NCBI RefSeq assembly: GCF_000183725.1
Contig: NC_014762.1
Location: 2,170,001 to 2,234,000 of the forward strand
Direction of reading: 5' to 3'
DNA: 64,000 bases
Source: Sulfuricurvum kujiense DSM 16994
GTDB lineage: Bacteria > Campylobacterota > Campylobacteria > Campylobacterales > Sulfurimonadaceae
The notes under the pieces are model-generated. The model was not told where the DNA came from. It ran no database searches and worked only from the letters and a program-made list of their open reading frames with translations. Of this stretch, positions 3,295 to 46,323 are shown in pieces. The translations under genes and the position numbers were made by a program. Each line of letters begins with the position of its first letter. Positions within the stretch are counted from its first letter, which is position 1.

Positions 3295-3411
3295 ATACTT
3301 TTCTGTTTAGTCAGAAAAGTACCAAAAGAACATACCATGATCCAAAAACGCTACGTTCCTCTCGGCACTACTGCCTTCGGAACAGCTCTACGTATTGGAT
3401 AATGGAAATTT
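3295..3411 (+). repeat. AGAAAAGTACCAAAAGAA-type structured repeat, copy 1
   Basis: Begins with an AGAAAAGTACCAAAAGAA box, then CATACCATGATCC, then a nested hairpin GTTCC-tctc-GGCA-ctac-TGCC-ttc-GGAAC. It is strongly similar over about 110 bp to the reverse complement of 42868-42988. It lies between ccoI and ccoS. Confidence 0.85.
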
Positions 3412-3412
3412 T

Positions 3413-5806
3413 TTATTTATATAACCATCTCACCCGCATCGAGTTTCCGACGACAAGGAGCGAACTAAACGACATTGAAATCGCCGCAATCAGCGGAATA
3501 ACATACCCCATCATCGCAAGCGGGATCGTAATCGAATTATAGACCAGCGAAATGGCGAGGTTTTGTTTGATCAGTCCGTACGTTTTACGGCTGATTGCGA
3601 ACGCTTCGGCAAGCGAAGTGAGTGAATCGTTCATTAATACCACATCGCTCACCTCGATGGCGATATCGCTGCCGTTACCCATCGCGATGGCGATATCGGC
3701 ACCGGCAAGCGCCAAGAGATCGTTAACCCCGTCACCCGCCATCACGACGATATGCCCCTGCGCATGTGCCGACTCGATAAATGCCGCTTTCCCCTCAGGG
3801 GTTAAATGGGCATGAACTTCCTCGATCCCGACCTCATGAGCTACCCGCAAAGCCGCCGCTTCATGATCCCCCGTCAGCATGATGACCCGGAGATTCAACC
3901 GCTTCAATGCCGCAATCGATTCCCGTGCTTTCTCTTTCGGAAGATCGCGCAGCTCATAAACCGCGACCAATTGGTGATCGACCGCATAATAAAAGAGGCT
4001 CTTATCGCTCGCAGAATCGACCTCGATCCCTAATTCCTGCATCAATAGGGCATTTCCTCCCGCGATCATCACTCCGCTGACACGCCCTACCATCCCGCGT
4101 GCGGGGATCTCACGGGCCTCTTCGATCGCAGCCGTACCCATCTGTTCTTCAGTACGTTCCAAATACTCCAGCACCCCTCGGCTGATCGGATGTTTGGATG
4201 ACGAGACAAGGGTATACAATGCTCCCTTCTCAAAAGGGTGATGGACCGTTGCGTAAATAACTTCGGGACGCCCTTGGGTGATGGTCCCTGTTTTATCCAG
4301 AACGAGCATCGACGATTTAGCCATCGTCTCGATCTGGGCTGCCGATTTAAAAAGTATCCCCCGTTTTGCCCCCAGCGCCAATCCGACCAATGTCGCTACC
4401 GGTGTCGCCAGTGCCAGCGCACACGGACAGGCGATGATAATAACCGAAATCCCTACCATCAATGAACGGTCAAAACTGTGGGGCCAGAAATACCACGTCC
4501 AAAACGTCGCAATGGCTAAAAACAAAATAGTGGATGAGAAGTGTTGTGAAAGCCGATTGGCTAATTGCTCGATGGAGGGCTTTTGCGCCATCGCATTTTC
4601 TAAAAGATTGACGAGATGGGATAGGGTCGAGTGGGCGAAATCTTTCGTCGCACGGTAGTGTATCAGTGCATCGATACTTGTTGTGCCACTAATGATTTTA
4701 TCCCCTACACGCTTGAAAATCGGCTCAGACTCTCCGGTAAGATTGGACTCATCAAAACTCCCCTCCCCCGAAATCACTTCCCCGTCAATTGCGGAACGCT
4801 CACCGCTTCGGATGACGATGACATCCCCCTCTTTTACTTCATTGACATCAACAGATCGTATCCCTTCTCCCTCGACAATGCTCACTTCTCTCGGGATATG
4901 TTTGCCGATAACATCAAGCGTGTCGGCGGCATTTTTACGGCTGAGTACCTCGAGAAATTTTCCGAACAGGACAAAGGTGATAATCATCGCTACCGAATCG
5001 AAATAGGCTTCCCCTTTTTCGAATACCGTAATATAGATGGAATAGAGATACGCAAGGCTTGATCCCGTCACCACCAGCAAATCCATCGTTACCGATTTAT
5101 TTTTCAGGCCGTAATAAGCCCCGCGGTAAAAGACCCATCCGCTGTAAAAAAGGACGGGGGTCGCCAAAAACCATTCGGCGACATTCAAAATCGTCTTGAT
5201 CTCTTGGGTAATACCGGTGAAATATCCCGCATACTGTGCAACGGCGATCCACATCATATTCATCGTCGCAAACGTCGCCACCGCCATCCGCAGATAATAC
5301 TCTTTGCGTTCTTTGTTGGCACGTACCTCTTGAAGCGACGCATCGTACGGAAATGCGTTATAGCCGATAGCGCGGATCATATCGATGATAGCGGAGAGTT
5401 TGACGATGGCAGGATTCCAGGTGATTCGGGCTTTATTGTTCGTGTAGTTGATATGCGCTTCGATCACACCTTCCATTTTATGGAGCGCTTTTTCATTCAG
5501 CCATACGCACGCCGCACAATGGATCCCCTCGATAACCAGCGAAACCTGATTTAAACCCTCTTTGCTCAACGTCACAAAGCGTTCACTAAATGCAGGGGTA
5601 TCAAAGTTGGAACTCGCTTCGAACTGCTCAGTCGGCGGAGAGAGGGTCGCATCCCCCATTTTGCTGTAAAAACTCTCCAGCCCTTCGTCTTTGAGAAGAT
5701 GAAAAATCCCACGGCACCCGTTACAGCAAAAGCGGTATTCACCGTCGTGTATCATCACCTCATCACTGAACTCCAGATGGCAATGATCGCATTTGACTTT
5801 AGACAT
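3413..5806 (-). CDS. ccoI: cbb3 oxidase maturation copper P1B-type ATPase
   Basis: Copper-exporting P-type ATPase of the CcoI/FixI type, which supplies copper to the cbb3 oxidase. The 797 aa begin with a Cys-rich metal-binding segment (CDHCH and FCCNGC, residues 6-31), followed by an HMA domain with GIHCAACVW (C97 and C100). Eight membrane helices would follow. CPC at 460-462 is the intramembrane copper site, and D504 in DKTGT is the phosphorylated residue. The GDGVNDLLAL hinge is present. The Cys-rich N-terminus and the nearby ccoS separate it from CopA. The start overlaps the end of the asparaginase-like gene by 8 nt. Confidence 0.94.
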   Translation of the reverse strand: MSKVKCDHCHLEFSDEVMIHDGEYRFCCNGCRGIFHLLKDEGLESFYSKMGDATLSPPTEQFEASSNFDTPAFSERFVTLSKEGLNQVSLVIEGIHCAACVWLNEKALHKMEGVIEAHINYTNNKARITWNPAIVKLSAIIDMIRAIGYNAFPYDASLQEVRANKERKEYYLRMAVATFATMNMMWIAVAQYAGYFTGITQEIKTILNVAEWFLATPVLFYSGWVFYRGAYYGLKNKSVTMDLLVVTGSSLAYLYSIYITVFEKGEAYFDSVAMIITFVLFGKFLEVLSRKNAADTLDVIGKHIPREVSIVEGEGIRSVDVNEVKEGDVIVIRSGERSAIDGEVISGEGSFDESNLTGESEPIFKRVGDKIISGTTSIDALIHYRATKDFAHSTLSHLVNLLENAMAQKPSIEQLANRLSQHFSSTILFLAIATFWTWYFWPHSFDRSLMVGISVIIIACPCALALATPVATLVGLALGAKRGILFKSAAQIETMAKSSMLVLDKTGTITQGRPEVIYATVHHPFEKGALYTLVSSSKHPISRGVLEYLERTEEQMGTAAIEEAREIPARGMVGRVSGVMIAGGNALLMQELGIEVDSASDKSLFYYAVDHQLVAVYELRDLPKEKARESIAALKRLNLRVIMLTGDHEAAALRVAHEVGIEEVHAHLTPEGKAAFIESAHAQGHIVVMAGDGVNDLLALAGADIAIAMGNGSDIAIEVSDVVLMNDSLTSLAEAFAISRKTYGLIKQNLAISLVYNSITIPLAMMGYVIPLIAAISMSFSSLLVVGNSMRVRWLYK

Positions 5807-42744: not shown

Positions 42745-42862
42745 TCTACTTTTCTTTTTCACAAGAAAAGTAGCAAAAGAAAATCGCCCTCACACCAAAA
42801 CGCTGGCGGTACGCTTGTGCACTACTGCACGCGACCTTGCTCTTGGTGTGGTGTGAGGGCAT
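42745..42862 (+). repeat. Structured repeat, copy 2
   Basis: AGAAAAGTAGCAAAAGAA box followed by a large hairpin with a perfect 12-bp outer stem GCCCTCACACCA/TGGTGTGAGGGC (42786-42797 and 42849-42860). The apex is TGCA-ctac-TGCA. It fills most of the pckA-glnA gap with copy 3. No other gene or signal is seen in this 328-bp gap. Confidence 0.85.
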
Positions 42863-42867
42863 TATTT

Positions 42868-42988
42868 TTAAAATTCCCGTGATCCAAATCCTAGAGCCGT
42901 TCCGAAGGCAGCAGTGCCGAGAGGAACGTGCGTTCTTGGATCATGGTATGCTCTTTTGGTACTTTTCTGGCTAAACAGAAAAGGACAA
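42868..42988 (-). repeat. Structured repeat, copy 3 (inverted relative to copy 2)
   Basis: Read on the reverse strand it contains AGAAAAGTACCAAAAGAG, CATACCATGATCC and a GTTCC...GGAAC hairpin with a GGCA-ctgc-TGCC apex. It is closely similar to 3295-3411 over the whole length. Copies 2 and 3 lie tail to tail. Confidence 0.85.
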
Positions 42989-46124: not shown

Positions 46125-46242
46125 GTACTTTTCTTTTTAAAAAAGATAAAGTACCAAAAGAAAAGCGCCCCCTCACCAGAACGCTACCAACCGTTTTGGC
46201 ACTGCTGCCAACGGTTGGGCTCTTGGTATGGTGTGGGGGCAC
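46125..46242 (+). repeat. Structured repeat, copy 4
   Basis: AAAGTACCAAAAGAAAAGC box, outer stem GCCCCCTCACCA/TGGTGTGGGGGC, inner stem AACCGTT/AACGGTT and apex GGCA-ctgc-TGCC. It lies between cheZ and the U32 gene, in a 205-bp gap that has no other feature than a weak promoter-like AT-rich stretch. Confidence 0.85.
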
Positions 46243-46323
46243 AGTTAAATTCTTCCTTTTAAATAATACACACCTTTTTTTCGATAAAATTCCCTAAAAT
46301 ATTAATGAATCGAGTAACTCTCT

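Follow-up and report, generated by a model that had tools for sequence, protein, structure and literature searches.

Introduction

Intergenic repeats with the potential to form intrastrand triplexes have been described in Escherichia coli under the names BoxC, PIT and TM, with TM(ECO)/BoxC/PIT following the consensus CCCTCNCCC N3-6 GGGNGAGGG N3 GGGNGAGGG (Holder et al., 2015, PMC4666352). In E. coli, these repeats lie between genes without strand bias, their inverted pairs always combine one type A with one type B copy, and they are unlinked to known transposons (PMC4666352). TM oligonucleotides form a stable triplex in vitro, as recorded by CD and NMR, and a stable triplex was not found in vivo; earlier work on BoxC/PIT saw neither promoter nor terminator activity (cited in PMC4666352). 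Purine-motif triplexes in general are stabilised best by G-G-C triplets (PMC4666352). The cellular relevance of bacterial intrastrand triplexes has been open since BoxC/PIT, with oligonucleotides that fold and a function that was not found. Here, we describe a dispersed repeat of Sulfuricurvum kujiense which features a similar order of strands and whose stem and putative third strand vary together.

Copies in the Window and Architecture of the Element

The window, i.e., the whole 64-kb stretch of S. kujiense DNA that was analysed, contains four copies of an element of about 121 bp, all at the positions given in a preliminary description, which had treated the repeat as four-copy; the genome total is 38. 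The copies and two example parts are as follows.

3295-3416, plus strand: copy 1, subtype B; hairpin 1 at 3295-3322, mirror box CAAAAGAA at 3323-3330, hairpin 2 at 3335-3405
42746-42870, plus strand: copy 2, subtype A; hairpin 1 at 42746-42773, mirror box at 42774-42781, hairpin 2 at 42786-42860
42774-42781, plus strand: example of the putative third-strand box (copy 2), mirroring the purine arm of hairpin 1
42866-42986, minus strand: copy 3, subtype B; hairpin 1 at 42959-42986, mirror box at 42951-42958, hairpin 2 at 42877-42946
42959-42986, minus strand: example of the head hairpin (copy 3), (N)TAC-Y8-loop-R8-GTA(N'), with a covarying closing pair
46125-46250, plus strand: copy 4, subtype A; hairpin 1 at 46125-46154, mirror box at 46155-46162, hairpin 2 at 46167-46240

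Copy 1 is located antisense between ccoI and ccoS, copy 2 begins 23 bp past the pckA stop codon, and copy 4 begins 7 bp past the stop codon of a CheZ-like gene. Copy 3 lies downstream of glnA and tail to tail with copy 2, an arrangement between pckA and glnA that had been noticed before and was confirmed by Pfam matches of the two genes (PEPCK_ATP and Gln-synt).

All four copies share the 5' to 3' order hairpin 1, box CAAAAGA, hairpin 2. Hairpin 1 consists of the foot (N)TAC/GTA(N') and the arms TTTTCT/AGAAAA, and the GTAN pairs with the NTAC in this foot, a pair which covaries. Hairpin 2 is an imperfect stem of 70-75 nt with the tip GGCACTRCTGCC, and the head of the element can be written as NTACTTTTCT..AGAAAAGTAN'CAAAAGA. 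The first description of the fold had recognised the box and the hairpin that follows it and had omitted hairpin 1 in front of the box. Its box was found four times in the window at up to three mismatches, compared to 0.21 matches expected from shuffles.

The four window copies fold far better than shuffled sequences (z -4.6, -7.7, -3.2, and -5.3). Moreover, the compensatory changes reported earlier are present: the tip of copy 2 is closed by T-A instead of G-C, and the mid stems differ in sequence with their pairing kept. In an alignment of 44 copies, 93.2% of the cells are paired, compared to 76% after shuffling and 38-45% in slid controls, and two-sided changes occur at 14 of the 24 structure pairs, with strong compensatory change in both hairpins. 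The covariation supports the earlier claim of a selected structure. The copies fall into the main subtypes A and B and a few others. Copies 1 and 3 had been called nearly identical and taken as evidence that one of them spread recently; they are only 86% identical and both resemble copies elsewhere more closely, which points to a common subtype (B) and to no recent duplication.

Some copies carry insertions of their own. In two species, the box is interrupted between AAAA repeats by a mini-hairpin of about 32 bp (CAAGCGTAGCGCTCCCGAAGGGATGTTTCTCTG), and the S. kujiense site with this mini-hairpin (~1097.7-1097.8 kb) is also an A/B chimera. In two genomes, a nested insert with CCCTAAAGGGATTTCCTTTGGTC is found in the tip of hairpin 2.

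Distribution Within the Genus and Insertion Sites

A covariance-model search of genomes, as it had been proposed for finding further copies, revealed 38 clear copies in the 2.82-Mb genome (E < 1e-5) and more in relatives. Another 24 genomes of the genus, many of them incomplete drafts, contain 0-16 copies each, and the strict head pattern had no match in 76 genomes from other genera of the same family.

The S. kujiense copies occupy 26 sites, of which 10 are convergent, 15 co-directional, one unclear and none divergent, and 23 of the 38 copies begin at most 25 bp from a stop codon on the same strand. Comparison with relatives agrees with the dispersal proposed earlier, as corresponding sites were found without the element. 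The gap between ccoI and ccoS measures about 9-30 bp in most of some 20 relatives and contains the element in S. kujiense alone, with unrelated repeats at this spot in a few relatives. Likewise, the site between the CheZ-like and U32 genes features the element in only four of the genus genomes compared, the others being empty or bearing another palindrome, and in the pckA-glnA gap the types of element vary between species. These comparisons show that the elements are inserted into intergenic DNA, mostly just past stop codons and never between divergent genes. No clear target-site duplication was seen at the insertion sites, whose boundaries are defined to less than base precision. The same short intergenic sites also carry other repeats: a family consisting of GGCTCnCTGCCGAAGnGAACCCAGTGTTAACGT followed by a hairpin occurs at or near them in relatives (ccoI-ccoS and pckA-glnA regions), and palindromic repeats of the GTCATTCC...GGAAT type share the insertion points of the element.

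Twelve tail-to-tail pairs were found, eleven of them A with B, one A with C and none like with like. As the pairs join different subtypes, they form a unit whose putative triplex heads face outward, short of being a long perfect palindrome. Between co-directional genes, four solitary copies are sense and four antisense, which leaves no real rule of orientation.

The location past stop codons raises the question of a transcription terminator or a stabiliser of RNA 3' ends, in which a U-rich tract, complementary to the box, would come after hairpin 2 and tail-to-tail pairs would act in both directions. Besides the 23 copies close to a stop codon and the 10 convergent sites, this is in line with two terminator-like matches inside elements and with a slightly better fold of the reverse strand in 68 of 94 copies. 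Furthermore, the genus shows 52 A.C mismatches (read as G-U from the reverse strand) against 18 G.T, an excess which derives from related, non-independent sequences. However, both orientations are seen among solitary co-directional copies, and copy 1 lies within an operon; glnA possesses a separate, ordinary intrinsic terminator at 43045-43024 (minus strand), most relatives lack the element at these genes, and subtype B has a poor U-tract. BoxC/PIT, too, was without terminator activity (cited in PMC4666352). Termination is therefore regarded as a rather doubtful explanation, although it is the strongest of the rivals considered here. A sense-strand element of 3' untranslated RNA was likewise considered and is weakened by the four sense and four antisense solitary copies and by the mixed orientation in other phyla.

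The Box as a Putative Third Strand

Read across the turn GTAN'C, the box (AAAAGA) mirrors the 3' arm of hairpin 1 (AGAAAA). This relation was examined in viral contigs, which were scanned for hairpins with three stem variants while the box was left unspecified. A run of three A in the stem was accompanied by a run of three A in the box in 22 of 22 cases, and a run of four by a run of four in 23 of 24 (Fisher P ~6e-12 for the association, with related sequences that are not fully independent). The stem AGAGAAAG was followed by the box CAAAGAG in all four cases. For 26 of the 51 scanned AGAAAAG hairpins there was no box at all; these are probably unrelated and were excluded from the comparison. 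In S. kujiense itself, one copy combines the stem CAAAAAAAG with the box CAAAAAAA, featuring seven A in both.

Several simpler relations between stem and box were rejected. A constant box does not agree with the mirror covariation, competition of the box for the 5' arm via complementarity is contradicted by the cases of AGAGAAAG with CAAAGAG, and a direct repeat fails to account for this same combination. Joint variation of stem and box as mirrors is instead the pattern expected of a purine-motif intrastrand triplex (R.R-Y). The head also shows the class II order, i.e., pyrimidine arm, loop, purine arm, short loop and a second purine arm, with the third strand mirroring the purine arm. Triplex formation itself is what we infer from this pattern. 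Several points count against it: the A/T-rich head offers few G-G-C triplets, a stable triplex was not found in vivo for TM (PMC4666352), and a protein which reads the mirror sequence directly would yield equal covariation. According to the latter idea, the head would be a duplex binding site for a conserved DNA-binding protein and no triplex would be involved, which would suit the high conservation of the sequence between phyla. Nevertheless, stem and box covary with mirror and not with inverted symmetry, and the loop pairs with the tail in other phyla, both of which point to a fold; such a binding site is considered improbable.

The Same Head in Other Phyla

An exact search for one version of the head in 85,000 species genomes returned at least 120 stretches. 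The matches listed belong to Bacteroidota, Selenomonadales and Oscillospiraceae (Bacillota), Nitrospirae/Nitrospirota, Desulfobacterota and one Campylobacterales genome. The earlier mention of similar boxes in other proteobacteria holds as far as other bacteria are concerned, with the matches listed being mostly non-Proteobacteria. Heads were multi-copy in each of 18 genomes tested, ranging from 2 to at least 38 per genome, while a reversed control pattern gave zero matches in the 18 genomes. The bodies downstream of the head vary by clade. In the Desulfobacteraceae genome SURF_3, composites of 530-670 bp carry heads at both ends of a long structured body, and a search for coding content in these composites gave no convincing ORF.

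Among the heads of these other clades, 56 of 111 show complementarity of at least 4 nt, including two G/C, between the loop and the sequence that directly follows the box, compared to an expectation of 20.9 and a maximum of 36 in 2000 within-clade permutations. Topologically, this loop-tail pairing would be a pseudoknot closing on the putative triplex of other clades. None of the 67 copies from this genus has a loop-tail match of at least 4 nt, and hairpin 2 occupies that place. The signal is strongest for Watson-Crick pairs alone (z 9.6) and decreases to 6.9 and 6.0 when G-U is allowed on either strand, which fits DNA better than RNA.

This distinction bears on a pseudoknot of RNA transcribed as the reverse strand, with UUUCUUUU as a Hoogsteen strand along UUUUCUUU/AAAGAAAA and additional loop-tail pairing in the manner of the telomerase pseudoknot. 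The order of the reverse strand is exactly that of a Y.R-Y triplex, which is possible in RNA, and the loop-tail complementarity in other phyla would be expected. Yet the weakening of the signal by G-U, the lack of a preferred orientation relative to genes and the missing loop-tail match in this genus speak against this structure, as does Rfam, where no family matched at the gathering score or at relaxed thresholds. Accordingly, it is judged unlikely, and more so than termination. The G-U asymmetry is equivocal as a sign of RNA function, as the genus shows an A.C excess, yet other phyla lack wobble support on either strand. Nor do the sequences suggest a stable small RNA, with copies in both orientations and no forward-strand G-U tolerance in the covariation. 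Altogether, the terminator and RNA readings are possible and less well supported than a single-stranded DNA element.

A further idea, raised from the outset, was mobilisation of a GTAG-type REP by a RAYT (Y1 HUH) transposase. The element is palindromic, intergenic and found in inverted pairs, its GTAN adjoins a hairpin, and three Y1_Tnp genes exist in the genome. However, the GTAN is paired in the foot of the stem and there is no unpaired tag; moreover, heads occur in 0 of 32 Y1_Tnp loci and at least ten genomes bearing the element are without a PF01797 match. This origin is consequently considered very improbable, the least credible of all. The three Y1_Tnp genes precede the window by about 43 kb; two are near-identical neighbours, one is shortened, and no triplex heads lie nearby. 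Hence, from the preliminary interpretation as a whole, the selected structure and the dispersal persist, the RAYT link and the recent spread do not, and the mirroring of the hairpin-1 stem by the box had been missed.

Proposed Mechanism and Significance

We favour a dispersed DNA repeat of the REP-like, non-autonomous kind, an explanation held to be probable with considerable room for doubt. When single-stranded, its head would adopt an intrastrand triplex of class II and the purine motif. In the single-stranded head, the pyrimidine arm would be followed by the loop, the purine arm, a turn of 3-4 nt and the purine third strand, and the long hairpin 2 would represent a clade-specific body. The active form may be the folded single-stranded DNA, e.g., at replication forks or during transfer, and the element could spread via a trans-acting enzyme or by template switching in replication, being tolerated mainly downstream of genes. 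The search for a mobilising enzyme brought up no candidate. In a wider and more tentative extension, which we would not call likely, one DNA fold, i.e., the purine-motif triple helix with a loop-tail pseudoknot lock in many clades, might be the conserved head through which a large, as yet unnamed superfamily of mobile but non-autonomous repeats in several phyla is recognised, the processing being done by a putative enzyme specific for single-stranded DNA in its folded form.

In independent lineages, the stem and the box have changed in concert, so that the third strand has been put to the test by evolution itself. Selection for a triplex thereby becomes a question which can be answered from sequences, and many natural variants are offered for direct experiments. 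The reach over several phyla and the loop-tail pairing suggest a shared, so far unnamed machinery.

Comparison With Known Repeats

The box sequences were not found in print in the literature searched, which was mostly non-subscription, so that the A/T-rich family may have been described earlier. Compared to MITEs, the element is likewise short and non-coding with polymorphic insertion sites, and its paired units have outward inverted ends; it differs by the common solitary half-units and by the fact that neither a target-site duplication nor a cognate transposase was found. With the GTAG/CGTC REPs and REPINs (PMC3733652, PMC3116915) it shares the nature of an extragenic palindrome, frequent dimers in opposite orientation and mostly co-directional or convergent sites. 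Nevertheless, it is longer, contains GTAN inside the stem, possesses a third-strand box and has no RAYT; GTAG REPs are characterised by an unpaired tag and a RAYT (PMC3733652), and the element has neither.

The TM(ECO)/BoxC consensus is not matched by the head of the element. While BoxC features GGGAGAGGG, the element has the A/T-rich stem AAGAAAAG, its turn (TAN') forms covarying base pairs with the 5' foot, and the head leads into a clade-specific body such as the long hairpin 2. In addition, heads of this type in other phyla pair the loop with the tail. Their range covers several phyla, while the description of TM(ECO) concerned proteobacteria. On the other hand, the Y-loop-R-turn-R order, the multi-copy and intergenic occurrence without strand bias, the tail-to-tail A+B pairs, the wide variation of copy number between relatives and the missing tie to a known transposon are common to both, and the layout of two MG1655 BoxC pairs that were inspected agrees with the element. 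Given a BoxC-like order without the consensus, the element is best placed as a variant of that kind and not as BoxC proper. Judged by this layout, its closest known relative is E. coli BoxC/PIT/TM, of which it appears to be an A/T-rich cousin.
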